Of a DNA stretch of 32,617 nt, positions 1-16,148 are shown piece by piece (within the stretch, counting starts at the first letter, position 1; every line of letters starts with the position of its first letter). The notes beneath the pieces are model-generated. The model was not told the origin of the DNA, did not search any database, and saw only the letters and a program-made list of their open reading frames with translations. The position numbers and the translations under genes were made by a program. Source of the stretch: Bacillota bacterium (GTDB taxonomy: Bacteria > Bacillota > Clostridia > RUG12999); NCBI GenBank assembly GCA_030705675.1, contig JAUZPZ010000006.1, positions 1 through 32,617 on the forward strand. The letters are read 5' to 3'.

Positions 1-778
1 CAATTGCAATCTTTCCTTTATGAAGAATCAAACTTATTAAATATGTGCCAAGAGTTGCACCGCATAGAGCCAAAATTGTATTAATCGCTGTTATTTGAAC
101 TTGCTCAGGAGCTACGACAGCACAACAAAAGCTCGGCCAAAAAATCCATAGCACCATTGAACCTAACATCGAAAATCTATCAGAAGTAGCATCACTTTCA
201 ACGTTTAGACTTCTGTGTTTTAAAGCAGTTAATGCAACTGCAAGTCCCAACCCAAAATATGCGCCGAATGTATGTATTATAATAGACCCTGCGGCATCTA
301 CAAAACCTTTAGTGACCACTAATCCGCCATCACAAACAAGCCACTCATTTAGCATATAAAAAGGTACGATTATAGCTCCGATGAGTGCATATTGATATAA
401 CCGTAACCGTCCCAAGACTGCACCCATTGCTATAAGCGCTGCGGCTGCTGCAAATTCTGCATATAAAATCGACTTAATACTATCAGCGGGAATTGCTTCG
501 CTGGATAATACTCCCGTAGAGCGAATAAACATGTATAAAGGCAAAGCAGTTGCAACTATTAAGTATGTACCGGTTATTGCACTAAAGCCATACTTTTTCA
601 CAAACACCATTAAAAATCCAAAACCAACCAACAACATAGCAAGAATACCAATAGAAAAATTATATTGTTGCACCTGTCTTACATTCTCCACACCCAGCGC
701 CCAGCATTGAGAAGCTTGTAATTGCAACATTACAACTACCAAACTAACTAAACCTATTTTCTTTTTCAATTCAATCAT
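1..778 (-). CDS. Rh/Amt-family ammonium transporter, N-terminal part (cut by window edge)
   Basis: This reading frame is absent from the ORF track because it runs off the left edge; 259 codons are visible from the ATG at 778. The product has a hydrophobic N-terminus and successive membrane segments. It carries the stretch DAAGSIIIHTFGAYFGLG, which is typical of the Rhesus-type branch of Amt/Rh ammonium channels, including a conserved His in the permeation path. It should conduct ammonia/ammonium across the cytoplasmic membrane. The AAAGGA motif abuts the ATG with no spacer. The in-frame TTG three codons later (769) would sit about 9 nt from that motif and is a realistic alternative start. A consensus promoter lies about 310 bp upstream, so the mRNA has a long leader. 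No glnB/glnK partner is visible; it could lie beyond the window. Confidence 0.85.
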   Translation of the reverse strand, partial: MIELKKKIGLVSLVVVMLQLQASQCWALGVENVRQVQQYNFSIGILAMLLVGFGFLMVFVKKYGFSAITGTYLIVATALPLYMFIRSTGVLSSEAIPADSIKSILYAEFAAAAALIAMGAVLGRLRLYQYALIGAIIVPFYMLNEWLVCDGGLVVTKGFVDAAGSIIIHTFGAYFGLGLAVALTALKHRSLNVESDATSDRFSMLGSMVLWIFWPSFCCAVVAPEQVQITAINTILALCGATLGTYLISLILHKGKIAI

Positions 779-1085
779 TCCTTTGCAATTGTTAAATGTA
801 ATATTTAGTACTTTAAGCTGCTCCCCTTTCAAATCTAATTCTCATGGTTAGTTTTTACCCATTAATATAACTCTTCCTCACCTATTTTAATTAAGATATG
901 TACGTGATTAGACATAAGATATCCGCTTGTTGCCTTATGTCTAATTATACAGTATCTCTAAGAATTTTTGATAGTCTTTTGAATCGTTAAAAATAATCTA
1001 TTGATTTATCCCTCTTAGCATCACATGATAAATTCCTGATGGGCTTTTCTCTCGCATACTTCTCGGTATTTATCGTCACCCCGAA
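779..1085 (-). promoter_or_regulatory. Long structured 5' leader of the ammonium transporter mRNA
   Basis: About 300 nt lie between the promoter and the transporter start. The leader holds GATAAAT (1074-1068), ATTTATC (1033-1027) and a second GATAAAT (1010-1004), so the middle heptamer can pair with either flank. CATCA (1041-1037) and TGATG (1023-1019) interleave with the second pairing, an H-type pseudoknot arrangement. A 12-bp perfect hairpin follows at 945-907. A short ORF MGKN-stop (862-848) preceded by a GAGGAAGAG ribosome-binding-like sequence lies further down. I could not match this to a known riboswitch class, and regulatory function is inference. Confidence 0.4.
907..945 (-). repeat. 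12-bp perfect inverted repeat (RNA hairpin) in transporter leader
   Basis: ATTAGACATAAG and CTTATGTCTAAT are perfectly complementary across a 15-nt loop. No T-run follows on either strand, so this is not a canonical intrinsic terminator. It could be an RNA structural element of the leader or a protein-binding inverted repeat. Confidence 0.6.
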
Positions 1086-1089
1086 AGAG

Positions 1090-1118
1090 ATTATACCATA
1101 ACTACGCTTTGTTGTCAA
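1090..1118 (-). promoter_or_regulatory. Consensus sigma-A promoter for the ammonium transporter
   Basis: On the minus strand TTGACA (1118-1113) is followed after exactly 17 bases by TATAAT (1095-1090). Both hexamers match consensus. Transcription would start near 1083 and run about 300 nt before the transporter start. Confidence 0.8.
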
Positions 1119-1223
1119 CACTAAAAACTCACCCAAATTTTCCGCTACAATTTCTAAGTTGCTTGCGTTGGGACGTCCCCTTGTGCTTTGGGGATTTTCA
1201 TCCCGGCTATTGACAAAGAACCT

Positions 1224-1341
1224 AATAAAAACGACCGTTTTCTATAAAAAAACGGTCGTTTTGGGCGAGGAGAACGAAATAGATGCCTGTTGTTTTATAA
1301 GGCTAAATGTGTAAAAATAGGCACGTCCGCAACAACACCTT
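1224..1341. repeat. 118-bp hairpin-bearing intergenic repeat, copy 1
   Basis: This block matches 4127-4244 over 118 positions with four differences that I could count and no gaps. It begins with a strong hairpin whose arms are ACGACCGTTTT and AAAACGGTCGT, flanked by A and T runs so that it could terminate transcription on both strands. It ends with GTCCGCAACAACACC. A related CGTCCCCAACAACACC follows immediately at about 1345, so the tail is duplicated. It lies 42 bp after the stop codon of the 803-aa protein gene. It may be a small non-autonomous mobile or REP-like unit; no transposase is in view. Confidence 0.85.
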
Positions 1342-1382
1342 TTTCGTCCCCAACAACACCCTTTGTGATAAAGTAATCTTCC

Positions 1383-3794
1383 TTAATTCCCTGAAACCTG
1401 CGCCTTCTTCCATGTAAAGAAGGCTTGGTAAGCTAAATCGTTTCGTGTCTTAAACCGGTTTTTCAGCGACTCGGTGCTTTGATTGGTATGAGAATTTACC
1501 ACAGTGTCTAACAGTAGATCCCTGCACTTTATGCTGCTCATGGTATAAACAAGAGCCGCATTTTTCATCTTTTCCTCCAGTTCCTTGGAAAGTGGCATTT
1601 TTTCGCCCTTCGCTTGGGCAAGGAGCATTTCATACTCTGTCGCCGCTAAGCTTTGGATACTGTTCATCCCTGAGAACGCCAGCCATGAGTTGGTTGCTTC
1701 TATAAAGTCCTTTGCGAAAAACTTCAAAACTGCCAGATAAATGGTACCGGACAAGGAAGTGATCTTATCTGCCGAAAAGCCATTAGTAATGATCCATTTG
1801 ATGGATTCCTTGATTGTGTTGTCCAAAGCGGAAGTTTTCATAGCAGAAATGATCTGATCCTTGCTGCTCTCTTTATATTTTTCAATAATTCCCTTTGAAA
1901 GGGAAACGATCAACTCCTTGTCTGCCGATGCATTATTTGTAGCAGAAAGCTGACCGATAAACGCCTCGTAATTTTCCCCTACGATATTATAGGTATCAGC
2001 AATGGTTTTGAGCAAAATCAGTTCGGCAAGGGTATCGTTTGTCGTCGATAGCCCAACTGTCAGGCCAAAATCTGTAAACTCGCCGCCTACATCTTTTATC
2101 AGCTGATTGAGATTTGCGCCGCTGCCCTTTACTTCCTTATACAGCTCAATAATATCGCTGCTAAAAGAGATAAAATTATCTCCGTTTTCCTGAACGGTTT
2201 CAATTGCTTCTAAATTCTTTTGCAGCATGGTTTTTAACTCGTCCTGCGTGGGCACAAGAAGTCGGGTAATGGCATCCTCTATAGCTTCCCGTTTGTTATT
2301 GCTTCCAAAAAGGTCGGCAAAATCGAAGTCGGCGAGATCGGCGCCCGTTTCTACTAATGCCGCGCCAACACTGGTCAGATACACATACTCCCTGTATTCC
2401 TTTTCGTTCATATTCAGATCATCTTTATAGTTATATTCCCATATTTTGTGGCCATCGTCGGCTATGGGGTTTGAAAATACCGTAAAAGCCTTGTTTTTTA
2501 CTAAATTATTTACGTTTAAACGGTAAAAATCACTGGTAATAAAAACCGTCTGGGTATTATCATCCCAATCCACTCCCGCGCTGAAGCCCTCCGCAACAGC
2601 ACGCACAGGAACCAGTGTTCTGCCGTTTACCACCTTGGGCGCCACATCCAGAGTAACCCTTTTGTCGTTGACGCTGATCACAGGGTCACCTACCCGCATA
2701 ATGATTGAGGAATTGCCTTTAACTGCAGTAACTGTTTGTGTACTCTCATTCCAACTAACAACCGCCCCCAACGCTTCAAAGATGGCACGCAGAGGTACAA
2801 GTGTCCGCCCATTGTCCAGCGCAGGCGGCTGGTCGAAGCTGATCTGCCTGCCGTCGATCATAACCCCAATAGACTTTTGTGCAGCGCTGCCTTTGCGCAG
2901 GGTTACATAGTCCGCCAACCTGGTTTCCGCCGGGATACAAACCGACTTATCGCAGTAAAATGTATAAATGCTATTGGCAGGGCTGATAAAAGGATCAATT
3001 GAAGCCTGATATTCATCCTCCGTTACTTCTTTTCCGTCAAAGATAAAGGTGCCTTTGCCAGTTTCATAGGGCTGTTCACTATAAAACAGGATTTCTCCTT
3101 CGGAAAGCTGATCGTTTTCTAGCTTAAATAGCATGGCTCCGCTGGCACCCGTACCCATACCCCCGAAGGTGATAAAACTATTTTTCTCGCCCCATTGATA
3201 AAGGTGGGCGTTTACCGTTCCCAGATCGACACATGCGCCATTTTTATATGTGAATACGTTGTAAAATCCATAAGCAGCCAAAAACAGCTCAGGTGTGCCA
3301 TTTTCATCAACATCGTATAGGGCAAAATTAAAGGAGCTGTTATCATTCTTATAGCCCTTGATCAGCTCAAGGTAGGCATCCTCCCAAGGCTCCTTAGAAG
3401 GTAGGGGGGAATCGGTTTTGCGGAATACCGCACCCGTCTCAACAGTCACAAGCTTATTTTCCGATTCAAAAACCAAATTACCATTTATATCTCTCATGGT
3501 AAAGGAAAAGTCCTTAAAGCCTTCGTTACCTGTAACGATGCAGTCGGCATGGGTGTCATCGGCAGAGTAGCATCCGTTCAAATGATAAAAGCCCTCGTAC
3601 ATATTAATGGTTATAGTAAAGGTGTTGTCTGGATAAAAGGTAATAGCGTTGCCGTCAGCCTCCCATAAAAAGCTCTGCACCTGCTGGTATGTACCGTTAA
3701 AGGCTGTATCTGCAGCTTCTGCCTTTAAAATTGGTATACTGTTGATCATAAGTATATTCAAAGCTAAGATTAAGCACATCCATTGTTTTTTCAT
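1383..3794 (-). CDS. Secreted protein with copper-amine-oxidase N-terminal-like domain
   Basis: This 803-aa protein starts with a lysine-rich n-region, a hydrophobic core and an AEA-A type cleavage region near residue 28, so it is probably exported. Residues 1-300 include a short YDVDENGTPELFLA motif resembling secreted beta-propeller or calcium-loop sequences. Residues about 309-422 match the Cu_amine_oxidN1 stalk family (PF07833), with twin motifs NGRTLVPLRAIFEALGA and NGRTLVPVRAVAEGFSA. In Gram-positive bacteria this domain is a wall- or protein-associated module and does not imply amine oxidase activity. Residues 430-803 are mostly predicted helical and I recognise no domain there. The start is supported by AAAGGAGG 8 nt upstream. 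No SLH or sortase motif is visible. The biological role is unknown. Confidence 0.85.
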   Translation of the reverse strand: MKKQWMCLILALNILMINSIPILKAEAADTAFNGTYQQVQSFLWEADGNAITFYPDNTFTITINMYEGFYHLNGCYSADDTHADCIVTGNEGFKDFSFTMRDINGNLVFESENKLVTVETGAVFRKTDSPLPSKEPWEDAYLELIKGYKNDNSSFNFALYDVDENGTPELFLAAYGFYNVFTYKNGACVDLGTVNAHLYQWGEKNSFITFGGMGTGASGAMLFKLENDQLSEGEILFYSEQPYETGKGTFIFDGKEVTEDEYQASIDPFISPANSIYTFYCDKSVCIPAETRLADYVTLRKGSAAQKSIGVMIDGRQISFDQPPALDNGRTLVPLRAIFEALGAVVSWNESTQTVTAVKGNSSIIMRVGDPVISVNDKRVTLDVAPKVVNGRTLVPVRAVAEGFSAGVDWDDNTQTVFITSDFYRLNVNNLVKNKAFTVFSNPIADDGHKIWEYNYKDDLNMNEKEYREYVYLTSVGAALVETGADLADFDFADLFGSNNKREAIEDAITRLLVPTQDELKTMLQKNLEAIETVQENGDNFISFSSDIIELYKEVKGSGANLNQLIKDVGGEFTDFGLTVGLSTTNDTLAELILLKTIADTYNIVGENYEAFIGQLSATNNASADKELIVSLSKGIIEKYKESSKDQIISAMKTSALDNTIKESIKWIITNGFSADKITSLSGTIYLAVLKFFAKDFIEATNSWLAFSGMNSIQSLAATEYEMLLAQAKGEKMPLSKELEEKMKNAALVYTMSSIKCRDLLLDTVVNSHTNQSTESLKNRFKTRNDLAYQAFFTWKKAQVSGN

Positions 3795-4014
3795 CTTAAT
3801 AACCTCCTTTTAAAATATGTAACCAGTCATAATATCACTTTTTAAATAATAACCTTAATAATTATATCAAATGCACCTTAATTTGTCAATGAGATGGATT
3901 TTCATTCCATAATTTACATATGTCCCATTTTCTTGCATTTCGCCGAAAGGTTTAGAAGGGGGATCGGGGGGTCTAAATTTTACGACACCACTCAATCAAA
4001 ATTGAATTTGGAAA
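3795..4014. other. Intergenic stretch upstream of the 803-aa protein gene, no gene seen
   Basis: Apart from the ribosome binding site of the downstream gene (3803-3810), this AT-rich stretch holds no supported gene. The 63-aa ORF on the plus strand has no ribosome binding site or recognisable product. It must contain the promoter of the minus-strand 803-aa gene, but no convincing -35/-10 pair stands out. Confidence 0.5.
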
Positions 4015-4040
4015 CAAAAAAGAGCAGTTTAAAACTGCCC
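4015..4040 (-). terminator. Intrinsic terminator, minus strand
   Basis: On the minus strand GGGCAGTTTTAAACTGCTC is followed by TTTTTTG. It lies 87 bp beyond repeat copy 2 and would stop transcripts that read past the giant adhesin gene and that repeat. Confidence 0.5.
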
Positions 4041-4126
4041 ATTTTCTTATCAGATTTTATGGTTATGACATCAACCAAACTGTAAAACAAACCTTCATTG
4101 AATTATAAATATTAGATAATTATTAT

Positions 4127-4244
4127 AATAAAAACGACCGTTTTCTATAAGAAAACGGTCGTTTTGGGCGAGGAGAACGAAATAGATGCCTGTTGTTTTA
4201 TAAGGCTAAATGTGCAAAAATAGGTACGTCCCCAACAACACCTT
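4127..4244. repeat. 118-bp hairpin-bearing intergenic repeat, copy 2
   Basis: Second copy of the element at 1224-1341, in the same orientation relative to its gene, differing at four positions. It lies 42 bp past the stop codon of the giant adhesin, the same distance as copy 1 from the 803-aa gene. The hairpin is conserved, including its A and T flanks. Confidence 0.85.
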
Positions 4245-4249
4245 ACACC

Positions 4250-4283
4250 AAAAGCCCCACAAAAATTTGTGGGGCTTTTTTTG
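4250..4283. terminator. Bidirectional-type terminator after the adhesin gene
   Basis: AAAGCCCCACAAA pairs with TTTGTGGGGCTTT across a tiny AT loop. On the minus strand it ends in TTTT four bases past the adhesin stop codon; the plus strand has the longer T run. It probably ends the adhesin transcript. Confidence 0.8.
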
Positions 4284-4286
4284 ATT

Positions 4287-7200
4287 TTATTTTAAATTTT
4301 CAATAATTCTCATGAACACCATTGCTGCCTGTGCTCTTGTCGAATTATCCTGTGGAGCAAAGCTTCCGTCTGCATCTCCTGTTATTATGCCATTATTTGA
4401 TGCCCATACTACTGCACCTTTTGCATAATCGGAAATACTTGCATTATCAGTATAATCTGTTTTGCCTGATACTGATATATCATATCCTTTATACTTAGCA
4501 TATCTGTAAATGATTGCCACCATTTGCTCACGAGTAATATTCTCTTTTGGAGCGAACTGTGTTTCAGATATACCTTTTACAATACCGTTTTCGCTTGCCC
4601 ATGAAACTGCTTTTTCATAGTAGGCCCCGTTTTCAAGGTCATTAAATAATGATGTGTTTGCATTTGGTTCATTTTCTATTCTGTAAAGAACAGTAACAAA
4701 CATCGCCCTTGTTACATCACCGTTTGGCTCAAATGCAGAGGAAGTAGTACCCAACATAAATCCCTTTTCATTTACGAACTTAACCGCCTCATAGAACCAA
4801 TCATTTTCATTCACATCACTAAACGGATTTTTCCACTCTGATGGCTCAATCTTTTTAAATTTTGCAGTAATTGTACCGGCTGATGTTATCTTCTCAAATG
4901 TGTATTCATTCACTTTTCCAATACTTTCGCCGTTTACTAATACATCCTCAATTTCGTAACCTTCATTGGGTATAATCGTAAATGTTTTGCTTTCATCTTT
5001 ATTTACACTAACGGTTTCAGGGCTAATTCTGCCACCATCAGCCTGTGTAACGGTGATTTTATAAGTTGTGATATCAGCACTTCCGCCACCGCCTCCGCCT
5101 GAAGATCTTGGTATAACGCTTAGAGGTGATCCGCTGATAGCGTAATTTGAATTTGTTATTACTGCAACAGAATATGTGCTACCTGGTGTAAAGCTTCCGC
5201 TTAGTATATAAGCTGTGTTATTGCTGCTTGCGGTTGCACTTGCAATGTTAACCGCTGTACCGTCTAATGTAACAACAAAGTTGTCCTTGGTAAGTCCTGA
5301 AATTGCTTTGTCAAGTACTACTGTTATATAACTGCTTCTTGCAGACCCTGCACTTATTGTAACATGGAGTGCTGTAACTGTTAAGTTTGCTAATGTGCCG
5401 TCAGTATAACTGTAATTTATTTCATAATTGCCGCTATTTGCTCCGCTTGCAGTAATTACATCTGCATGCAGTCCTACATTTGTTTCCTTTGTAATACTTG
5501 CATCATAGGTAAATACAGGCTTATTAGTTAGATCTGCCTCTGTTTCGCCATTTACAAAACCAACATATTCATATGCAGGATTTGCATTTTCGTCACCGTA
5601 TTCTCGGCTTGCATCACTTACCTTAATATTAAGCGGTGCTTTTGTTATGGTAAGTTTTCCTTTTGTATCGGAAATTACCAAATCATAGTTTGTGTCATCC
5701 TTTAATGTTTTGCCTTCCTTAACCGCAAGGGTAATCGGATATTCGCCTGCATTTGTTTTTGTGCCTGCAATATCTGCATCGCTTGTTAAGACAAACATAT
5801 TTGAGATTTTTGCAATATAATCTGCATTTAATTCATCATCGCCTATAAGTCCCGTAATGTAATAGCTTGGATTTTCCTGTCCGTAAACCTTGCTTAAATC
5901 GTGTGCCGTTACAGTTGCTGTTGCTTTGTTGATATACATTGTAACTGTTTCCCCACCCGTATAGCTTGGATGATTTATGCTGTATGTTACAGTATATACT
6001 CCTGCTTGTTTAGGCTCTGTAACAGATGAATCAGTTGTTAATGTATAAGTGATGTCAATATTTTTATTTTCTCCCGAAAGTATCGGAACAAAATTTGCAT
6101 CATCTGAAATAAGGGTAATATCCTGTCGCTCGGCATTATACACCTTTACCAAATCAGCAGGTTTTAGCGCAATGGCTTTCTTTGATGCATTAAGCTTAAA
6201 TGTTGCGCTTATTCCACTTTCGTAGTTGGTATCGGTAATTGTTGCCGTAATTGTTGCCTCGCCCATTTTAAATATTTTTACATTACCGTTTTCGTCAACG
6301 CTTGCAACGTTATTGTCACTGCTAACCCATTCTACCTTAGGCTGTGCATTATCATAGTAAGCATGAAGCGTGAAGATGTCGCCCACTGTTACAGAGTTAT
6401 TTGAACCTGTAATGTAGAAGTTTCCGCCATTTGCTCCTGTAATCATAAGTATTCCTGTGTTGTTGTAATCAAATTCATAGTTATCTGCTCTTCCGCCTGA
6501 TACTGTGATTTCATATCCGTCTGTTTTTACAGGTGAAGAAGCGTTTGCAATGGTTGTTGCAAGTGGTTCTAAAAGTAGATCGCTTGCGGTTTCTCCGTAT
6601 TCAAAGCCTGTATAAGCAAGTGTGAATAATGGGTTTGCTTCACCGTATTTACGGTTTTTGTCATCTGCTTTTACCTCAAGTAATTTCTTTTTAATTACAA
6701 ATGACGCACTTGCCGCATAGGTTTCATAATTGTCGCCTGTGTATGTTGCGGTAACAACATAATCTCCTGCTTTTGTTGGCTTTTTGCCATCAAATGTAGA
6801 GTATTTAACTGAAACATTAACTCCGCTTGGTGAATTATCATAGCTTGCATCATTTAACGTTTCACCATAAGTACAACCATCTTGGGTAATCTCAAGACCG
6901 CTCATAGTTGCCTTATTTATTGTAAGGACTGCTCTTGATGAGCCCTTGTAATTTCCTGTTGCGTTAACTACAACATTGTATGTGCCTGCATTTGTTGGAA
7001 GTGCCTGGCTACCGTTATAGGTAACATCATAAGTTACATTTGCTACATCAGGTGTTACAAGGACTTCTGCGGTTCCTTCGTCATAGGTTTTCACTAAATT
7101 GTCAATTACAAATCCTGTTGTTTTTGCTTGGGGTATAAATACAACCTTTGCTGTTTTTTCTGTAAAGTTTGTATCATCTTTTTTAGTTGCTGTGATTGTA

Positions 7201-10200
7201 ACCTTTTCATTTACAGCTCCGTCAATACTTACAAAGCCGTTACTGTCAACTGTAACACTGCTCTTATCTGATGTCCATACAACATTTCCTGTACCGCTTC
7301 CACCGATTGCTTCCAATGTGAATTTATCGGTATATTCGATTGCCCCCGGAAGACCTACGATTGTAATTTGCTCCTGTGATGCCTGAGCAATTACCATAGA
7401 AATATCTTGCTGAGTTGTAGTATAGTTTGCATTGTCGTTTAGTAAAATTTTAACTGTATAATCGCCGGCTTCACTTGGTATATCACTTAGCTGTACGTTA
7501 TCTTTTAAGTACTCAACAGTGTAATCTGAAAATACTCTGCCAAACTCGTCAACGCCTGATATTGCTACCTGCTTTTCATCACCGTCATACTTAAAGGTTG
7601 CCGTTCCAACAGTGAAATTTACATTGACTGGAGTAATATCAGCCGTTTCAGTTGCTGTTTTTGCACTATCTGCAAGCTTATAGTTTCCAGCCTTTACACC
7701 TGTAATGCCATTTGCTGTGAAGGTTACTATTTTGCCTGTGCCGGATAGTTCATCATTAAACATAGCACTTCCTACAACATTTACCTGACCCTTATCTAAA
7801 TCAAAGATTCCGTTTACGTCGGTTACCGTTGCGGTTGCAACATTTGTGCCATCATATTTCTTGCTGTCTGCCGAAATTGTAAAGCCTGTAATATTCGCCC
7901 TGTCAATGTTAACTGTTGTTTGAAGGGTTGTTGTAGAAAGTGTATAAAAATCTTTTTTATCACCTTGTAATGCAATACCGCTTACATATACCATTTTGTC
8001 CGTTCCTGCATCTGCATTTGCCATAGCACCTGTTCCGATGGCAGATATGTCTTCACCCAATCCATTGGAAAGATTGATTTGTACCGCTACATTGTTTGTT
8101 GCATCATATTCCCTGTCTGTTGCAGTTGCAGTTGGTGTAAGCACTCTTTGGTAAACCGTAAATGTTTTTGTTGCGATTTTTGGTGCATAGCCGTCTTTTG
8201 TACTTGTTGCGGTTATTGTAACCGTTCCTGTGCCTGTTGCAACAACATTTCCATCTGTATCAATCGTTGCCGGAGCGTTTAGATTTAGAGAATATGCCAC
8301 TGTACCGCTTGCACCTTGTGTGGTTACCTTGAAGGTATCACCGTAATATACTCTGTCAGGCACACTTTCAATTGAAAATACTTCCTGAACAGCTTCTTTT
8401 ATTACAAGCTTTGCGGTAAATGGTTTTACAGCATAGTTATTTTCAACACTTGGATTTAAAACAACTGTTATTGTATATTCGCCAACATTTTTAACATTTT
8501 CAACGCCATTGTATTTAACCGTGTAATTTGAGCTGTCAAACACTTCGCCATTTGCCATTGCAGAAATATCAACCTTTTGGAAGGTATCATCAAATGTGCG
8601 AGTTGTTGTGCTTGCACAAATTATGCTTACGGTTGCTTTTGATATTTTTGCCGTTGTTGTTCCCATAATGCTTCCACCGTCAAGCACATAATTATCTGCA
8701 TCCCTACCTGTAAGACCTGTGATTTTATAGCTTACATTTGCATTGTCATTTGCATCTGCAGATGCAAATGAGCCTATTACATTTGTGCTTACATCACCAC
8801 TTATGTTTACTGTTGATACAGTTAATGAAGCATCTATATTGCCATTAAATATTTTGTCATTTGCTTTGACATTAAAATCGTTTGCTGTTAGTGTTTTGGG
8901 ATTTACAGTTAGGGTTGCACTTTCATAAATTATACTATATTTATCGGATGTAAGTCCGCTTGGGGTTATTTTGTATTCCCCTACTCTTCCGCCGTTTGTA
9001 TAGTTTGTTGTAAATGTCAGTGTTCCCGAAAAATCATTGGCAGAAAGTCCGTCGCTATATGTTACACTTCCGTTTGATGCATCCCAAGGAGTACCAAATG
9101 TATGCGTTTTATCCTGCGCTGTTATTGTAACTTGTTTTTTTGTAACAACCAAGCTATAACTTGCAAAAACATCTGAGGTTCCGCTAAGAGTTGATGCCGC
9201 CATAATAGTTGTCGAGCCGTCTTTTAAGATTGTTACTTCGCCTGTTGTGCTGTTTACAATTGCTACATTTGTATTAGTGCTTAAATATGTTACTGTGCTT
9301 GCGTTTGCGTTTGTAAGTGTGTTTGTAAATTTATTATCACCTACTAACTTATTTACAATTCCTTCACCAAAGTAAATTGGTTTTTGCTGTGCTGTTTGGG
9401 ATTTTATTGTCATATACCCAACATTATCATAGCTTGAAATGGTCGGCAGTGTTGTATTTGTTACTACAAACTTATTTTTTATTGTGTAATTGGCATTTGT
9501 GCCTGCGAAGTCTATAACATACAGATACTTTGCAGAGGATACTGCTTTTGTAACAGGTGTTGTACTTGTCAAAACATCTTCATTTTCATTTACAAGATAG
9601 TATTTTATACTAAAATCTGATTTAGTAAGCAGTGTACCTGTATTATCTATGCTTATGCCCTTTGCTGTTCCGTCATAAACCTGTTCTTGCCCTGATATTG
9701 TAAAATTCACAGCTTTTTGATTTACTACCTGAGTTAATGGGTCGGACGTTTTTGCATTGTAATTACTATCACCGCCGTACTCTGCTGTAATAGTGTGAGT
9801 TATGGCATCCAAATCGCTCTTTTTAAGTGTTGCAACACCGTTTGAAAGTGCAACTGTTGCCAGTACTGTATTTCCGTTTTTAAAGGTGATATTTCCTGTT
9901 GGTATTGCCCCACTTGTACCTACTTTTGCAGCGGTTGCAGTAAAAGTAACCTCATCTTCGTATATACTTGGATTTTTAGAAAATGTCAAGGTTAAACTTC
10001 CAGCATCTGCTTTGTTTATTGTGTAATTTCCAAGGATTAAATTTAATATGTCCAGATAGTTTGTTGCGTTTGACACATCAATAGTTACGGCATATGTTCC
10101 CGGCACCGTTGGTGGAGTAGTTGATTTTGTATAGCTTGTAGGGCTTACTCCTTCGTAATATGTCGTAATGGTTCCCGTGCCTGTTTTTGGTGTTACAGTT

Positions 10201-12665
10201 ATACCTTGAGGATTTCCGTTATATGTTTTTGATGTTAAATCATAATTAAAATCGGTCGTTTCCGATGTTTTTTTGTTTATAGTAAGTGTTCCTTTATTTA
10301 TCGTAACATTATAGTTTGTACTTGCACTTGTTCCTGTGATGTCATAAGTTTCTACATCTGAGGTTTGGGTTGCAGTCGTAGCACCTGTAATTGCAAGTGC
10401 TGTGTTCGTGTCACTATTTCCTAATGAACCGCTTGTAATTGTAAAATCAAAGGTTGGATTTGCATCTCCATAATTGCGGCTTTTATTATTCATTGTGATG
10501 GTGATTGCAATTTTATTTACCGTCACTAAAGTTGGCGGACTTGTTGTAACTGTTTTTGTTTGGCTATTGTCCGTTCTTGTTGTTGTAACGTCACAAACAT
10601 AGTAATATGAACCAACACTTTTCCCCGTAGGGATATTATAGGTTGCTGAAGTTGCGCCGTCTACTTTCGATTTACCGCTTCCGTCACTATTACAAGTGTA
10701 CCATTGATACCCTGTTATTGTATGCCCTGTTGCAGGTGTTGCAGTAATACTGATATTTCCGCTTGTGTATCCGTATGTTAGCGTAGTTCCCGCCGTGCTG
10801 ACTGTTGGAGCAGTAGCAGGTATTGCTACAGCATTTGCTGTTAAATCATATTTTTGATTGACTGTGATAGCACGGTCTGTCATGGTTGTGTCATTATCGC
10901 TCCATTTGTCCCATGTGTAGCCCGAACTTATTGTTGCACCAATTTTAACAGTTTCACCTTTTAAATATGTGCCAGCACCTGAAACGTTTTTAATACCTGT
11001 ACCTGCGCTTAATCCTACATCATAGTAATTAACCGCCATGCTGGTGTTTGAACTTGAAACACTGCCAGTATTTATATATGTGCCTGCACTATTTTTTGCC
11101 CAAACATACATAGTGGTATCTGGGTCGATTCCGCTAAATGTGAATACACCATTTGAAGGTGTTGCAGTTTTTTTATTAAGATCGGGAGTAGATGCAGATG
11201 TTGATAAAACAACTTTGTCACTTGCAACATCCGTCCACACACTGCTATTTTTGTTGACTGTTACAGTTGCATCATATAAATTTCTTTCCCAAACAGCATA
11301 GCATGTGTTTGCAACAGAACCTAATATTGTGGTTGCAGTAACATTTGCAGTCGTGGCCGTTTTTGAGGATGCCCATCCCTTGAAGGTGTAGTCTGTTCTT
11401 GATGGGTTATTGGCCGGCAAACTATCAACGGTATTGCCTGTTACCATGGTAAAGGAAGAAGCACTTCCTCCGTTTGCGTTAAAACAAATCGTTTTATAAG
11501 ATGTATATTGTTCCGCTGCGGTATTGTTAGTACCACCGCTTACGCCGGCACTGCCATTAGATGGCACATAGCCTCCATCACCACCATAAGGAATAGCTAT
11601 TCCTCCGCCAAAACCATTACTAACTCTTCCATCGTCCGCATTGCTTGCAAATGTACCATCGCTGGAGTTGGACGAACCATAATTGCTAGGTGCACCTCCG
11701 CTTGCGCCAGAATAGGTATATGTACTTCCAAAAAATGCATATGCTATGGCTCTGCCGCCGCCACCGCCACCACCGCCACGAGCCGAGCCATTACCGCCGC
11801 ATCCGCCACCGCCGCCGCCGACATAGCAAGGAGATGAGCCATCGCTTCCTCCAGCACCACCATTAGAGCCCATATATCCACCTTGTCCGCCTGTTCCGAT
11901 TAGTTGACCTGCGTAACCTGCGCCGCCGCCGCCACCGCCGCCGCCACCGGCACGTGCAGCTGCTCCAAATGAACTCCAAGCCGCACTACTGCCGCCGTTT
12001 CCGCCAGAGCCGGCATTTCCGCCAGCACCTGCCGTTAGATTTAATGTTAAATTTGATGTATCAATGCCTATTTTTCCACATGGGTCTGCAGTAATACTTT
12101 GATACGCTTCTGTCTGACCATTACCGCCGTTTGTTCCAATGGCTGCGCCGCCACCGCTACCTCCATAGCCACCATTTCCGCCGGAGCCGGCTTCATCCGA
12201 AGTAGCATTGGCACCGTTATAGCCATTTTCGCCATCACTACCTTTACCACCATTTACATTTAATACATTTGTTGTTCCTGCATAACCGACAATTTTTAAT
12301 GAACATTTTTCAGTAACTAAAATTCCGGCACCGCCGGGATAAAGTGTACTGGCACCATTTGCTCCCTGCACCGTTACCGTGCCCTTTACAACTAATGTAA
12401 CATCAGCTGTATAGTTCGTAAATGCATTACCGGTTATAGAAATACCGGGATTACTTAAACTTTCGGCTACAATAGTAGCATTATCAAGGAGATACACTCC
12501 GGAGTCCATTATGTTTTGTCGACCCAAACTTCCGCTAAATGTACCTGTATATGTAAAATTACTATCATACACGGGGTCTGCCGCACTTGCAGTTATCACT
12601 TCCACAGGCAACAGGCTTATTGCCATTGCCAAGGTTAAAACTAAGCTTAAAATTTGCTTTTTCAT
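4287..12665 (-). CDS. Giant SLH-anchored repetitive surface adhesin
   Basis: The 2792-aa product has a signal peptide (cut after ASAA, about residue 29). A glycine-rich low-complexity region spans about 138-380 with runs up to nine Gly. An InlB/Listeria-Bacteroides-type repeat lies near 392-458 (FNANGG...YTFKGWA...YAVW), with a second related one near 560-610. A long array of MBG (YGX-type), YDG and bacterial Ig-like modules follows to about residue 2500, shown by recurring signatures such as NYGDANPTF, REYDATNNV, KKYDGTNVA, RKYGEANPLF and KVYGQENPSY. After a GGGGGG linker and another InlB-like module come three SLH domains (about 2614-2792). SLH domains bind pyruvylated secondary cell-wall polymer, so the protein should stand on the cell surface; adhesion or matrix binding is inferred. 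AGGGGG precedes the ATG. No sortase motif is present. Confidence 0.93.
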   Translation of the reverse strand: MKKQILSLVLTLAMAISLLPVEVITASAADPVYDSNFTYTGTFSGSLGRQNIMDSGVYLLDNATIVAESLSNPGISITGNAFTNYTADVTLVVKGTVTVQGANGASTLYPGGAGILVTEKCSLKIVGYAGTTNVLNVNGGKGSDGENGYNGANATSDEAGSGGNGGYGGSGGGAAIGTNGGNGQTEAYQSITADPCGKIGIDTSNLTLNLTAGAGGNAGSGGNGGSSAAWSSFGAAARAGGGGGGGGGAGYAGQLIGTGGQGGYMGSNGGAGGSDGSSPCYVGGGGGGCGGNGSARGGGGGGGGRAIAYAFFGSTYTYSGASGGAPSNYGSSNSSDGTFASNADDGRVSNGFGGGIAIPYGGDGGYVPSNGSAGVSGGTNNTAAEQYTSYKTICFNANGGSASSFTMVTGNTVDSLPANNPSRTDYTFKGWASSKTATTANVTATTILGSVANTCYAVWERNLYDATVTVNKNSSVWTDVASDKVVLSTSASTPDLNKKTATPSNGVFTFSGIDPDTTMYVWAKNSAGTYINTGSVSSSNTSMAVNYYDVGLSAGTGIKNVSGAGTYLKGETVKIGATISSGYTWDKWSDNDTTMTDRAITVNQKYDLTANAVAIPATAPTVSTAGTTLTYGYTSGNISITATPATGHTITGYQWYTCNSDGSGKSKVDGATSATYNIPTGKSVGSYYYVCDVTTTRTDNSQTKTVTTSPPTLVTVNKIAITITMNNKSRNYGDANPTFDFTITSGSLGNSDTNTALAITGATTATQTSDVETYDITGTSASTNYNVTINKGTLTINKKTSETTDFNYDLTSKTYNGNPQGITVTPKTGTGTITTYYEGVSPTSYTKSTTPPTVPGTYAVTIDVSNATNYLDILNLILGNYTINKADAGSLTLTFSKNPSIYEDEVTFTATAAKVGTSGAIPTGNITFKNGNTVLATVALSNGVATLKKSDLDAITHTITAEYGGDSNYNAKTSDPLTQVVNQKAVNFTISGQEQVYDGTAKGISIDNTGTLLTKSDFSIKYYLVNENEDVLTSTTPVTKAVSSAKYLYVIDFAGTNANYTIKNKFVVTNTTLPTISSYDNVGYMTIKSQTAQQKPIYFGEGIVNKLVGDNKFTNTLTNANASTVTYLSTNTNVAIVNSTTGEVTILKDGSTTIMAASTLSGTSDVFASYSLVVTKKQVTITAQDKTHTFGTPWDASNGSVTYSDGLSANDFSGTLTFTTNYTNGGRVGEYKITPSGLTSDKYSIIYESATLTVNPKTLTANDFNVKANDKIFNGNIDASLTVSTVNISGDVSTNVIGSFASADANDNANVSYKITGLTGRDADNYVLDGGSIMGTTTAKISKATVSIICASTTTRTFDDTFQKVDISAMANGEVFDSSNYTVKYNGVENVKNVGEYTITVVLNPSVENNYAVKPFTAKLVIKEAVQEVFSIESVPDRVYYGDTFKVTTQGASGTVAYSLNLNAPATIDTDGNVVATGTGTVTITATSTKDGYAPKIATKTFTVYQRVLTPTATATDREYDATNNVAVQINLSNGLGEDISAIGTGAMANADAGTDKMVYVSGIALQGDKKDFYTLSTTTLQTTVNIDRANITGFTISADSKKYDGTNVATATVTDVNGIFDLDKGQVNVVGSAMFNDELSGTGKIVTFTANGITGVKAGNYKLADSAKTATETADITPVNVNFTVGTATFKYDGDEKQVAISGVDEFGRVFSDYTVEYLKDNVQLSDIPSEAGDYTVKILLNDNANYTTTQQDISMVIAQASQEQITIVGLPGAIEYTDKFTLEAIGGSGTGNVVWTSDKSSVTVDSNGFVSIDGAVNEKVTITATKKDDTNFTEKTAKVVFIPQAKTTGFVIDNLVKTYDEGTAEVLVTPDVANVTYDVTYNGSQALPTNAGTYNVVVNATGNYKGSSRAVLTINKATMSGLEITQDGCTYGETLNDASYDNSPSGVNVSVKYSTFDGKKPTKAGDYVVTATYTGDNYETYAASASFVIKKKLLEVKADDKNRKYGEANPLFTLAYTGFEYGETASDLLLEPLATTIANASSPVKTDGYEITVSGGRADNYEFDYNNTGILMITGANGGNFYITGSNNSVTVGDIFTLHAYYDNAQPKVEWVSSDNNVASVDENGNVKIFKMGEATITATITDTNYESGISATFKLNASKKAIALKPADLVKVYNAERQDITLISDDANFVPILSGENKNIDITYTLTTDSSVTEPKQAGVYTVTYSINHPSYTGGETVTMYINKATATVTAHDLSKVYGQENPSYYITGLIGDDELNADYIAKISNMFVLTSDADIAGTKTNAGEYPITLAVKEGKTLKDDTNYDLVISDTKGKLTITKAPLNIKVSDASREYGDENANPAYEYVGFVNGETEADLTNKPVFTYDASITKETNVGLHADVITASGANSGNYEINYSYTDGTLANLTVTALHVTISAGSARSSYITVVLDKAISGLTKDNFVVTLDGTAVNIASATASSNNTAYILSGSFTPGSTYSVAVITNSNYAISGSPLSVIPRSSGGGGGGSADITTYKITVTQADGGRISPETVSVNKDESKTFTIIPNEGYEIEDVLVNGESIGKVNEYTFEKITSAGTITAKFKKIEPSEWKNPFSDVNENDWFYEAVKFVNEKGFMLGTTSSAFEPNGDVTRAMFVTVLYRIENEPNANTSLFNDLENGAYYEKAVSWASENGIVKGISETQFAPKENITREQMVAIIYRYAKYKGYDISVSGKTDYTDNASISDYAKGAVVWASNNGIITGDADGSFAPQDNSTRAQAAMVFMRIIENLK

Positions 12666-12687
12666 TTTTTTAATCCCCCTGTTTCAT

Positions 12688-12897
12688 TTATTTTTTTGGA
12701 TAATAGCAAATTCCAACATCTAACGGTTTTGGCTTATCAAGATGAAAATCCGCATAAATGCAGTACCAGCACTCCTGTAAAACTGCGCCGCTGCGCGGAG
12801 TAAACGCGGGGCATCGTTGCCTTGGCCATACATTGCCGTCCCGATTGGGCACATCAAGCGGCAAATCCTCTTTTCGTCGCATTGTTTGCATTTTCAT
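12688..12897 (-). CDS. Small Cys-containing protein of unknown function (69 aa)
   Basis: The ORF track begins at a GTG (12906), but AAGGAG sits 8 nt before the ATG at 12897, so I use that start. The 69-aa product has no signal peptide or membrane segment. It is rich in Pro, Arg and aromatic residues, with a C-terminal cluster CWYCIYADFHLD and a final GICYYPKK. The CxxC plus later Cys could bind metal or form disulfides. I do not recognise a named family. It ends 22 bp before the adhesin start on the same strand and lies just after the terminator of the Agr-like operon, so it is probably co-transcribed with the adhesin. The residue pattern and ribosome binding site argue for a real gene; its role is unknown. 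Confidence 0.65.
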   Translation of the reverse strand: MKMQTMRRKEDLPLDVPNRDGNVWPRQRCPAFTPRSGAVLQECWYCIYADFHLDKPKPLDVGICYYPKK

Positions 12898-12966
12898 CTG
12901 TTTCACTCCTTCAGTGTGCTTGTTTTAGACAGGTTTATTTATTCATATTCTACCATAAAAGTACAA

Positions 12967-13001
12967 AAAAACAGGTCTCTGCATGAAAAAGACCTGTTTT
13001 T
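12967..13001 (-). terminator. Terminator of the AgrC/AgrA-like operon
   Basis: On the minus strand AAAAACAGGTC and GACCTGTTTTT form an 11-bp stem around a 13-nt loop, ending in TTTTTTTG. It lies about 60 bp after the kinase stop codon. Confidence 0.8.
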
Positions 13002-13061
13002 GCATAAAAATGACATATTCTATTTTATTTTATCGATTGACAAAGAAAAAAATCTGTGATT

Positions 13062-14354
13062 TTAAATCTGAACCCGCACGCGGAATATATCATTTTCCGC
13101 TGTGTATTCGATGGCACCGTTTTGCTTTTCCACAAAGGCAAGGATGCTTTTGGTGCCGGTGCCGTGTCCATCTTCTTCGGACGTGGGATAGCCGTTTTGG
13201 TCAAAGACTACCTCGCCGGTATAAGAATTTTCTACCTGTAACAGGATACGTCCTGTAAAAACGGCGGTCATACCGATAAACCGACGTTCGTTGTACGACT
13301 GTTTTTCGCAAGCATGTATGGCGTTTTCCAAAAGGTTTGCCATCACCATTGCAAGCTCCAGACTGCCTACACCCGGCTCGACAGGAATATCCAATTTTGC
13401 GGTAAAGTCTACCCGTGCTCGTTCACAAAGCCCCGCATAATAGGAAACAACTGCACCCGCCGCCGCGTTTTCGCAATAGCGAGCCGGACTTGCGGTAAAT
13501 GTTTTGTTCTGCCGCTCAAGCAGAGCCATTGCCTCGCTTGCCTTGTCCTGATGCAAAAGCTCCAACATGGTATTGTTAAAGTGCCTGCGATCATGCTGAA
13601 CAATACTCATCTGCCTTACTGCTTCGTCCATAACCAATAGTTTTTTCTCCATAGCCTCAGTAGAAATTTCTAAAATCTCTTTATCCTTTTGCATTTTTAT
13701 ATTTTTATTCATTAAACTATTCTCGTGCAACTGATTTTTTAACGAATAAAAAATCGAAAAATATACGAATATTGCAAGAAAAACAAGAAGAATTAGAGGC
13801 ACCATTTGTTCTTTGAGCATTGTCACTACATCATGAGCAGATACAAAATACCATATAATATTTATAAATACTCCCGTTACAAGGAGCAGATATACATTCC
13901 ATTGTTCAGATATTTTTATATATAGCGGACGCAAATCTTTCCAAAAAAATAGTATTATTGTTCCAAAAATAATAAATCGCAGAAAAGTAATTGCGTAATA
14001 TGGATATGGAAATAAATCACACAAATAATAAGAAATCACAACCGCAATTGCATAAACATTCATAGCTGTTATACAGTTAAACAGCCATTGCATTATATTC
14101 TCTTTAAAAAGTGGTTTGACGCAGATACTTACAATTACAAAATACAAAATATCAAATTTAGAAAGAGTGGTATAATCCCTTGTCATATAAAAGTATAGAT
14201 TTGCAACAAGATCTATAGCAACGATAGTAATCATTGTAGCGATTTGTGTTTTTTTGCCGAATTTAGGCTGTGCTAAAGTGAACAGCAATATCACCAGCAT
14301 AGTGGTGGTAACAGACGACCTTACAAGATCATGCAACAGGCTGGTCAGCGACAT
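13062..14354 (-). CDS. AgrC-like membrane sensor histidine kinase (GHKL family)
   Basis: The 430-aa protein has about six to seven hydrophobic membrane segments in residues 1-200 and a short coiled linker. The phospho-acceptor motif is IVQHDRRHFNNT, with His near residue 254. The C-terminal GHKL ATPase has the N-box-type NLLENAIHA and the G-box GHGTGTKS near 395-402 (HATPase_c_5 type). This is the layout of peptide-sensing AgrC/ComD kinases. Its ATG overlaps the regulator's stop region by 10 bp, with GGAAGGGGG 9 nt upstream inside that gene, so the pair is translationally coupled. Neither an AgrB processing protease nor an AgrD-type pheromone gene is in the window, so the ligand is unknown. 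The pair points away from the adhesin locus terminator but is directly adjacent to it. Confidence 0.9.
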   Translation of the reverse strand: MSLTSLLHDLVRSSVTTTMLVILLFTLAQPKFGKKTQIATMITIVAIDLVANLYFYMTRDYTTLSKFDILYFVIVSICVKPLFKENIMQWLFNCITAMNVYAIAVVISYYLCDLFPYPYYAITFLRFIIFGTIILFFWKDLRPLYIKISEQWNVYLLLVTGVFINIIWYFVSAHDVVTMLKEQMVPLILLVFLAIFVYFSIFYSLKNQLHENSLMNKNIKMQKDKEILEISTEAMEKKLLVMDEAVRQMSIVQHDRRHFNNTMLELLHQDKASEAMALLERQNKTFTASPARYCENAAAGAVVSYYAGLCERARVDFTAKLDIPVEPGVGSLELAMVMANLLENAIHACEKQSYNERRFIGMTAVFTGRILLQVENSYTGEVVFDQNGYPTSEEDGHGTGTKSILAFVEKQNGAIEYTAENDIFRVRVQI

Positions 14355-15085
14355 AGTGATTTGCCCCCTTCCAGCATATAGTCAAAGTAGGCCTTACGCA
14401 CCTCCGCATACTGCTTTTGGGCAATGGGTACGCACATGCCCCCGCGCATTGTGAATTCCTTATCACTGATCCCCTCCACGCGGTTCATGTTTACCACATA
14501 GGAAATGTGCGGCTGCAAAAATCGGCGGTCAAAAAGCAGCGGTGCGATATATTCGGAAAAGGAACCTCGAATAGATACTGATTTCACCGTTTCGCCGCTT
14601 GTCAATAAAAATTTCACAGCAAGTCCGTCGCGCTTACAGCAAACGATGGAAGAATAGGACAAAACGTGCATACCGTCTTTTGTTTTGACCGGAAAGGTGT
14701 GTTCGTCCGACACGTCGATTTTGGAAACGGCAAGGGTAAGTGTATCGAAAAACGCCTTCTTGTCAAGCGGTTTTAATAGATAGTTGACTGGATTTGCGGC
14801 AAAGGATTCCAGTGCATACTCCGGTGCGGTGGTAATGTAGACGATCTGCGCCTCACGGTCACTGCGGCGGATGTTGCGCCCCAACTCCACACCGTGGATC
14901 ATGGGCATGACCATATCAAGCAGATAGATGTGAAACCGTTCTGTTTCACAGGCGGTAAGCAGCTTGTCCGGGTGAGAAAAGGTATGCACCTCGGCAGCAA
15001 GCCCTTTTTGTTCTATGTATTCGTTTGTCAATGCATGGATTAGCTTTAGCTGATCAGGCATATCGTCACAGATTGCAATTTTCAT
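14345..15085 (-). CDS. AgrA/LytTR-family response regulator
   Basis: I place the start at the ATG at 15085 (MKIAICDDMP), not the upstream start in the track, because AAGGAG precedes it at about 9-10 nt and the receiver fold begins there. The 246-aa protein has a CheY-like receiver with acidic pair DD at 7-8, phospho-acceptor Asp57 in YLLDMVMP, and the conserved Lys105 in LLKPLD. A LytTR DNA-binding domain follows at about 135-240. LytTR regulators bind repeated 9-bp sites upstream of genes for secreted or quorum-sensing products. It is the first gene of a two-gene operon with the GHKL kinase. Its targets are not visible; the neighbouring adhesin is a candidate by position only. Confidence 0.9.
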   Translation of the reverse strand: MKIAICDDMPDQLKLIHALTNEYIEQKGLAAEVHTFSHPDKLLTACETERFHIYLLDMVMPMIHGVELGRNIRRSDREAQIVYITTAPEYALESFAANPVNYLLKPLDKKAFFDTLTLAVSKIDVSDEHTFPVKTKDGMHVLSYSSIVCCKRDGLAVKFLLTSGETVKSVSIRGSFSEYIAPLLFDRRFLQPHISYVVNMNRVEGISDKEFTMRGGMCVPIAQKQYAEVRKAYFDYMLEGGKSLCR

Positions 15086-15272
15086 GTTATTATTTCTCCT
15101 TGATTTATATACGTTAAACTGATTTTTGCATTTTTGTGAGCAAAATTGGCTGCTTGCAAAGCTTGAATCAAATGCACTGCCACCAATGCTTGCAAATTTT
15201 AAGAGGATTTGACTTATCGGACAAATAAAACCCAAAAGCAGTATCTGTTGCCGATTTTAGCGAACTAAAATT

Positions 15273-15530
15273 CTACATAAGAGTTGGGACTGCCCCAGTA
15301 CTCTCTAACATTTTTACTAAATAAGATAGGTTTTTAATTTCAAATACGCAAATTGGTGTACTATGCTTGAGTACACCAATTTGCTCCATGTTTTCGTTAT
15401 CGTTATAATAAAAGGCATGGGTCAGTGCATTTGCCATATTTTTAAATATATCTAATATCCAATCATATTTTTCGCCGTATTTTTTTGAAAAAAGACTGTA
15501 TAATAAATGTTGGGGTAAGAAAATAGAGCC
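15273..15530 (-). pseudogene. Coding-like remnant without a start codon (up to 85 codons)
   Basis: An open frame runs from just after a TAA at 15533-15531 to a TAG at 15275-15273. The translation has ordinary protein-like composition, with pieces such as KKYGEKYDWILDIFKNMANAL and VFEIKNLSYLVKMLESTG. There is no ATG, GTG or TTG with a ribosome binding site; the first ATG is codon 32. It may be the C-terminal remnant of a lost gene, or chance. A perfect 15-bp inverted repeat (15348-15362 / 15370-15384) lies inside it. I recognise no family. Confidence 0.3.
15348..15384. repeat. 15-bp perfect inverted repeat
   Basis: GCAAATTGGTGTACT and AGTACACCAATTTGC are separated by 7 nt. No T-run follows, so it is not a typical terminator. 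It lies in the gap between the response regulator gene and the tRNA operon. Confidence 0.7.
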
Positions 15531-15531
15531 T

Positions 15532-15561
15532 TAAAAAAATTACCGCCCATGAGGGCGGTAA
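15532..15561 (-). terminator. Terminator of the tRNA operon
   Basis: On the minus strand TTACCGCCC, a TCAT loop and GGGCGGTAA are followed by a run of seven T. It lies about 43 bp past the tRNA-Cys 3' end and is a strong intrinsic terminator. Confidence 0.9.
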
Positions 15562-15603
15562 CATTGATGTTGTGACGACATACAGCGATGTCTCCACAAA
15601 AAT

Positions 15604-15677
15604 TGGAGGCGCCACCCAGATTTGAACTGGGGGTGAAGCTTTTGCAGAGCTCTGCCTTACCACTTGGCTATGGCGCC
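15604..15677 (-). tRNA. tRNA-Cys (GCA)
   Basis: The minus strand folds as a full cloverleaf: acceptor GGCGCC..GGCGCC, anticodon loop CTGCAAA, T-arm CCCAG/CTGGG with TTCAAAT, and an encoded CCA end. It is the last gene of the five-tRNA operon. Confidence 0.95.
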
Positions 15678-15778
15678 ATATAAATATTATATTAAAACAA
15701 AACTTAACTAATACCTCGTTTAAGTACCTACGTTTAAAAAACTGATAAAAGACGCATATTCATGCGCCTTTTATCAAG

Positions 15779-15853
15779 TGGAGCGGAAGACGAGATTCGA
15801 ACTCGCGACGTTCACCTTGGCAAGGTGACGCTCTACCACTGAGCCACTCCCGC
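15779..15853 (-). tRNA. tRNA-Gly (GCC)
   Basis: Cloverleaf on the minus strand starting GCGGGAG, anticodon loop with GCC between CACCT and AGGTG arms, GTTCGAATC T-loop and encoded CCA. Confidence 0.96.
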
Positions 15854-15870
15854 ATGTAAAAATTATTTTT

Positions 15871-15946
15871 TGGTGCCTCCGGGCGGAATCGAACCACCGA
15901 CACGGGGATTTTCAGTCCCCTGCTCTACCGACTGAGCTACAGAGGC
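15871..15946 (-). tRNA. tRNA-Phe (GAA)
   Basis: Cloverleaf on the minus strand starting GCCTCTG, anticodon loop CTGAAAA between GGGGA and TCCCC, GTTCGATTC T-loop and encoded CCA. Confidence 0.96.
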
Positions 15947-15957
15947 ATAAAAAATAA

Positions 15958-16034
15958 TGGCGACCTGGATGGGGGTCGAACCCACGACCTCTAGCGTGAC
16001 AGGCTAGCGTTCTAACCAACTGAACTACCAGGCC
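15958..16034 (-). tRNA. tRNA-Asp (GTC)
   Basis: Cloverleaf on the minus strand starting GGCCTGG, anticodon loop CTGTCAC between CTAGC and GCTAG, GTTCGACCC T-loop and encoded CCA. Confidence 0.96.
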
Positions 16035-16072
16035 ACATTTTATGCTTGTGCTTATTAATAGAAAGGGTAGTG

Positions 16073-16148
16073 TGGTGGGCACAATAGGGCTCGAACCTAT
16101 GACCCTCTGCTTGTAAGGCAGATGCTCTCCCAGCTGAGCTATGCGCCC
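16073..16148 (-). tRNA. tRNA-Val (TAC)
   Basis: Cloverleaf on the minus strand starting GGGCGCA, anticodon loop CTTACAA between TCTGC and GCAGA, GTTCGAGCC T-loop and encoded CCA. It is the promoter-proximal gene of the tRNA operon. Confidence 0.96.

Follow-up and report, generated by a model that had tools for sequence, protein, structure and literature searches.

Paired REP-like repeats beside putative terminators in a Clostridia genome

RAYT-linked repeats have been described mostly from Proteobacteria and Cyanobacteria. The locus described here, from a bacterium of the class Clostridia, carries a repeat that can be compared with several of the known families. In the TIRtrons of Di Nocera and colleagues, TIRs with a GGGGWSAS motif stand around a TIRYT/RAYT gene (PMC3733652); the text of that paper mentions no Firmicutes, and it also covers the CGTC REPs, which have a stem of 8-9 bp, a loop of 4-5 nt and no associated transposase gene. 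The GTAG-REPs and the REPINs/BIMEs of E. coli and Pseudomonas (PMC3116915, PMC8266576) are short intergenic palindromes, found mostly behind genes and associated with RAYTs, traits that the repeat of this locus has in common with them. What is new in the present case is that the repeats recurrently stand directly before a terminator, and that one copy lies at the edge of a gene common to another family.

The repeat pair and its modules

The window is the whole stretch of DNA that was analysed, positions 1 to 32,617 of contig JAUZPZ010000006.1 (assembly GCA_030705675.1). A repeat search of the window reported a sole pair of direct repeats of 119 nt, 97% identical and 2903 nt apart from start to start, with a similarity (E = 1.4e-51 when searched against the 1.92-Mb genome) that is far outside chance. 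A first-pass annotation of this DNA had noticed two near-identical blocks with four mismatches, and this is borne out, the repeat being 119 nt long and the mismatches lying at 1248/4151 (A/G), 1312/4215 (T/C), 1322/4225 (C/T) and 1329/4232 (G/C). The same orientation behind exported-protein genes, which it had also claimed, holds as well, since both copies and both genes are on the minus strand. The features of this part of the window are the following.

1223 to 1341, minus strand: copy 1 of the 119-nt repeat (REP core, linker and terminator when read in gene direction)
1228 to 1262, minus strand: putative intrinsic-terminator hairpin of copy 1
1264 to 1285, minus strand: right-hand motif of copy 1, CATCTATTTCGTTCTCCTCGCC; in genome G012, too, this motif lies before terminators
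1307 to 1330, minus strand: REP/TIR core of copy 1 (GCGGACGTGCCTATTTTTACACAT)
1345 to 1362, minus strand: extra REP half (GGTGTTGTTGGGGACG) adjoining copy 1
1383 to 3794, minus strand: gene of a putatively exported protein with a copper amine oxidase N-terminal domain; copy 1 lies behind it
4126 to 4244, minus strand: copy 2 of the 119-nt repeat
4131 to 4165, minus strand: putative intrinsic-terminator hairpin of copy 2, homologous to the tRNA-Leu terminator on contig C206
4167 to 4188, minus strand: right-hand motif of copy 2
4210 to 4233, minus strand: REP/TIR core of copy 2 (GGGGACGTACCTATTTTTGCACAT)
4250 to 4279, minus strand: perfect hairpin forming the SLH gene's own separate terminator, in the gap from the stop codon to copy 2
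4287 to 12665, minus strand: gene of a surface protein with SLH/MBG/Big domains; copy 2 lies behind it

The products of the genes at 1383-3794 and 4287-12665 both look exported, with N-termini that resemble signal peptides when judged by eye; the protein of the first gene, used as a query, gave no relatives. Read in gene direction (minus strand), each copy is composed of three modules: a REP/TIR core (GGTGTTGTTGGGGACGTGCC, which is GGTGTTGTTGGGGACGTACCTATTTTTGCACAT in copy 2), a linker (TTAGCCTTATAAAACAACAGG, with the 3' part CATCTATTTCGTTCTCCTCRCC) that ends in the right-hand motif, and an intrinsic terminator at the 3' end of the copy, formed by the hairpin AAAACGACCGTTTTC...GAAAACGGTCGTTTT and then a T-rich run (TTTTTATT). 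The strong hairpin that had been noted in both copies is present at 1228-1262 and 4131-4165. Folding z values are about -3.4 to -4.5 for the two copies as DNA, and -4.6 and -5.3 as RNA with short flanks. With a stable stem-loop followed by a T-run in the direction of the gene, the hairpin looks like an intrinsic terminator that would end transcripts. Module (iii) shares with intrinsic (rho-independent) terminators the perfect A-tract stem-loop, the T-rich run and a position behind genes in gene direction, but it differs from ordinary ones in that copies 1 and 2 have one and the same terminator sequence, which is nearly that found behind a tRNA-Leu gene on contig C206 of the same genome.

A tail said to be repeated once more beyond copy 1 is found there as an extra CAACAACACC, present as GTCCCCAACAACACC at 1346-1360. 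The copies had also been described as placed identically, 42 bp behind the stop codon; this distance is right for one of them and is 41 bp for the other, and the placement is not the same in kind, the spacer on the side of copy 1 carrying the second REP half and spacer 2 consisting of the second gene's own terminator (4250-4279). Because the two spacer sequences are unrelated, the near-equal spacing looks like a coincidence.

A core shared with the flanks of RAYT genes

The sole Y1_Tnp gene detected in the own genome lies on contig C159 (948-1715), encodes HVH and YIHQNP motifs and is enclosed by inverted repeats (921-951 versus 1771-1798 and 1993-2023), and these flanking repeats align with both window copies over about 30-37 nt; C159 comes from the same draft bin, which has 6% contamination. 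For module (i), the same sequence is found inverted around a Y1_Tnp gene in the same genome, and the link to an IS200/RAYT transposase, which had been proposed as a check, is supported: the GGGGACGTGCC core frames RAYT genes as inverted pairs both on C159 and in another genome of the class. At locus L053 the core stands before a Y1_Tnp gene with an inverted copy just behind the gene, and at L057 a Y1_Tnp gene lies downstream of the core. The layout on C159 is the one that Di Nocera and colleagues named a TIRtron (PMC3733652). The RAYT of C159 (255 aa) has HuH and Y...NP motifs and weak C-terminal helix-turn-helix matches, which recall the TnpA-REP subclass 2.1 of Quentin and colleagues (PMC6006769). 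In the C159 region (L033:900-2100), next to the inverted GGGGACGTGCC repeats around the RAYT, upstream tandem GGTGTCATGGGGACG units are seen that resemble the doubled REP half at copy 1.

The repeat resembles TIRtron ends (PMC3733652) in being a short G-rich repeat with a GGGGAC core that occurs as inverted pairs around a Y1 gene and also as single intergenic copies. It differs from them in that its core, GGGGACGT, is not GGGGWSAS, fitting positions 1-6 but having G for A at position 7 and T for S at position 8, and in that the window copies have this core at a single end, with a linker and a terminator attached. Compared with the GTAG-REPs, REPINs and BIMEs, in which a GTAG/GTGG foot lies 0-2 nt from a stem of 7-20 bp, the window repeat has no GTAG foot (GTTG precedes GGGGAC), a weak stem of at most about 4 consecutive pairs, no inverted REP pair and a very low copy number, with two full copies, about four core-only loci and the RAYT flanks where a REP family would be found in many copies. 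The letters CGTC do occur in the window core beside the weak stem, as in CGTC-tagged REPs (PMC3733652), but the stem is about 4 bp and the loop 8 nt long, and an identity with that family was dropped on stem and loop size and on the absence of a transposase in CGTC REPs. Since the GGGGWSAS motif is inexact and the GTAG foot absent, the claim is limited to a RAYT-flanking repeat and does not place it in either published set; within this limit, a REP-like nature of the repeat, one of the options raised in the first-pass annotation, is supported by sequence comparison. A repeat of Clostridia is in this way tied to its likely enzyme through inverted flanking copies.

In the own genome (G000, a 1.92-Mb draft in 225 contigs with 6% contamination), a genome search gave only the two full copies, the REP core alone at C159:5001, C159:357, C157:10848 and C173:360, and the terminator alone behind tRNA-Leu on C206. 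None of three same-genus genomes has a match to the element, and with two full copies in the genome the suggested recent spread of a 118-bp mobile unit is not supported. Nor was a target-site duplication, which had been named as a feature to look for, observed at the copies; IS200-type elements make no target-site duplication. Restriction of the block to these two sites, which had been named as evidence against a mobile unit, is what is found within the own genome, but relatives exist in another family. They are in G012, a genome of a different family in the same class that was sampled as 761 kb in stretches (the same-genus genome G002 as 680 kb) and that contains about eight full or partial relatives: C147:1445, C65:909, C89:3867 and C89:3716, and for the right-hand part C89:418, C129:987, C65:2049 and, weakly, C85:11563. 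In the order of G012, the searches took in four genomes. Across the class, the REP core was matched in 10 of 391 genomes, the own genome included, and the right-hand motif beyond chance-level single hits in only 2 of the 391. Phage and plasmid records, exact-pattern scans of IMG/VR and an exact scan of the genome collection gave no relatives of the element, and Rfam scans of the window and of related contigs, with a permissive scan of 780-1380, returned only tRNA and 5S or chance matches. In G012, another dispersed palindromic repeat, made of GATTTCACCGTGCC / GTGAAATCC blocks, adjoins several of the element copies (L038:480-540 and 3925-4060; L039:860-910).

Terminators at the edge of the repeat

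The right-hand motif was aligned over eight loci, and at these a terminator follows directly after the motif. Seven of the eight pass a strict automatic test. Of 4000 random positions 15 pass it, and of 4000 positions taken from the 150 nt that follow long ORFs 107 do. These ratios are descriptive only, because the loci are not fully independent (copies 1 and 2 have a common terminator) and because a further G012 copy, at C89:3867, is cut inside the motif, with the terminator absent there. The G012 terminators are wholly different in sequence and in length, and since these relatives carry other hairpins, the hairpin would normally lie outside the repeat. From this adjacency we infer a selectivity of the repeat for terminators, and if the preference for the terminator edge is real, it shows harm avoidance by a small selfish repeat. 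A wider proposal is that a composite repeat of Clostridia lodges selectively at the 5' edge of terminators as safe insertion sites, and that recombined repeat-plus-terminator segments act as seams for the exchange of surface-protein and transporter genes between families; we put it forward tentatively and regard it as rather unlikely.

The linker and terminator could instead be a functional RNA element of the 3' UTR, such as a regulated or stabilised mRNA end or a family of 3'-derived small RNAs, kept under selection with the REP core as a passenger. In favour of this, the right-hand motif is kept across two families, invariably oriented with the gene and followed by a terminator, and the pairing in an imperfect hairpin that has TCTATTT as its loop exceeds that of slid controls. 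However, the covariation signal is weak, its score being reached by 28 of 500 shuffles, an RNAalifold consensus of the element holds no compensatory pair, and Rfam gave no match to it. As the motif is found in 2 of the 391 genomes only and the upstream genes are unrelated, a selfish repeat fits better than a conserved regulator, and the RNA-element explanation is judged distinctly improbable. The idea that the right-hand motif derives from a tRNA-like sequence was discarded on visual inspection.

Origin of the pair and the edge of the amt block

Two further stretches of homology bear on how the copies came to their places.

4028 to 4174, minus strand: copy 2's terminator and the flank downstream of it, with a homologous stretch (75.5% over 147 nt) at C206:5834-5959 that lacks the REP part
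1 to 1228, minus strand: ammonium-transporter (amt) block with 86.5% DNA identity to G012:C142, the homology ending at the outer edge of copy 1

The homology to C206 covers copy 2's terminator plus about 100 bp of the sequence that follows, and matches the stretch behind the tRNA-Leu gene. As C206 has both terminator and flank without the repeat, these two belong together independently of the repeat, while copy 1 has only repeat and terminator, and not the further flank, in common with copy 2. Two independent insertions are unlikely to give one common terminator, because the relatives have different ones, and the most likely source of the pair is a single repeat-plus-terminator segment that was duplicated or recombined. 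Of the three origins that had been offered for the pair, a REP-like element with an IS200/RAYT link and recombination between neighbouring loci are thereby kept, the latter fitting the shared terminator best, and recent spread is not. That its homology runs past the terminator into the flank common to C206 makes copy 2 the likelier parent. At three of the four differing sites the derived base is apparently in copy 1 (compared with G012 and C206), which agrees with a direction from copy 2 to copy 1 and is too little to prove it. In principle, the 119-bp direct repeats could also allow the loss of the gene between them (1342-4126), as had been suggested, though no such junction was seen in searches that did not extend to strain variants. 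On C206 (L036:3821-6034 in G000), a C5 cytosine methyltransferase gene and its neighbours lie close behind the tRNA-Leu gene. The flank shared by copy 2 and C206 looks by eye like the C-terminal part of a serine recombinase, but nothing was found for it among plasmids, in PDB or in Pfam, and this reading is not used as evidence.

The same observations bear on the possibility that the terminator moves with the repeat, all 119 nt forming a single mobile unit, a MITE with a built-in terminator and a stem that evolves fast through compensatory substitution, with copies 1 and 2 as a recent transposition pair. It would explain why the outer edge of the terminator is where both copies stop and why a terminator stands behind every well-preserved relative, but the G012 relatives' terminators are unlike in both sequence and length, the copy-2 terminator is also found behind tRNA-Leu, where its downstream flank accompanies it and the repeat is missing, and the genome has just two full copies; we consider such a unit unlikely.

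The amt block (1-1228) comprises the amt gene and about 450 bp upstream of it, with its counterpart at G012:C142:8008-6775 (L075). The amt protein is 90-91% identical to that of G012, whereas two congeners offer only proteins of about 30% identity and the third has none. The G012 alignment stops at the outer edge of copy 1, and the G012 amt gene has no adjoining repeat. For the remaining genes of the window, the best matches in the sampled stretches of G012 have 24-48% identity, and the window from about 15.8 to 28 kb is 56-88% identical to and syntenic with same-genus G002. On these values an origin of the whole contig from a G012 relative, which the 91% amt match had suggested, is rejected. 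Since amt resembles the G012 gene and the rest of the genes side with the genus, horizontal acquisition of the amt block is probable, and the edge of the block coincides with the repeat. Such a change of affinity at a repeat could also be produced by the assembly, if a draft of 225 contigs with 6% contamination had joined G012-like sequence on the amt side to the own genome at the repeat, given that the left end is about 90% identical to another family, the part from about 15.8 to 28 kb follows the same genus and the switch lies at the repeat. However, the amt gene of G012 has no adjoining repeat, so that a G012-like genome offers no obvious overlap, and the four mismatches to copy 2 and the additional REP half show that copy 1 is no collapsed duplicate; an artefact of this kind seems very improbable.

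The reading that we moderately favour is a RAYT-family REP/TIR repeat in the 3' UTR against the A-tract of a terminator, with the pair formed by segmental duplication or recombination, likelier from copy 2, and with the same segment edging the acquired amt block. Each copy would be a REP/TIR-type palindromic repeat that abuts the terminator A-tract in the 3' untranslated region, in gene direction. Its REP part would most likely owe its spread to a RAYT/TIRYT enzyme that works in trans on hairpins of single-stranded DNA, with no use to the host required. After insertion, repeat and terminator would have been copied together by recombination, and recombination may have used the repeat-plus-terminator segment as the edge of the amt block; both the mobilisation by a RAYT and this use of the repeat are proposed from sequence. 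Against this preferred reading, the window REP stem is degenerate and lacks a GTAG foot, the match to the RAYT flanks is about 30 nt only, the amt gene of G012 stands without a repeat, and the outer terminator edge, where the common block stops, is also where a terminator-including unit would end. No Y1_Tnp gene was detected in G012 (about 94% complete), so that mobilisation by a resident RAYT is not supported there, and no empty orthologous site was found, the left flanks differing between loci. The repeat at the edge of a block shared across families suggests that such repeats may act as recombination seams.

Two smaller features were seen in the same window. Upstream of amt, a 12-bp perfect inverted repeat at 907-945 (ATTAGACATAAG / CTTATGTCTAAT), for which Rfam gave no match, keeps both arms in G012 with a loop that differs by an insertion, and is possibly a regulatory hairpin of the transporter gene. 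Five tRNA genes (15604-16148) lie where the synteny with G002 begins, at the point where contig C14 of G002 starts, and the part of the window to their left (1-15600), with the SLH, kinase and regulator genes and the amt part, may be an island.
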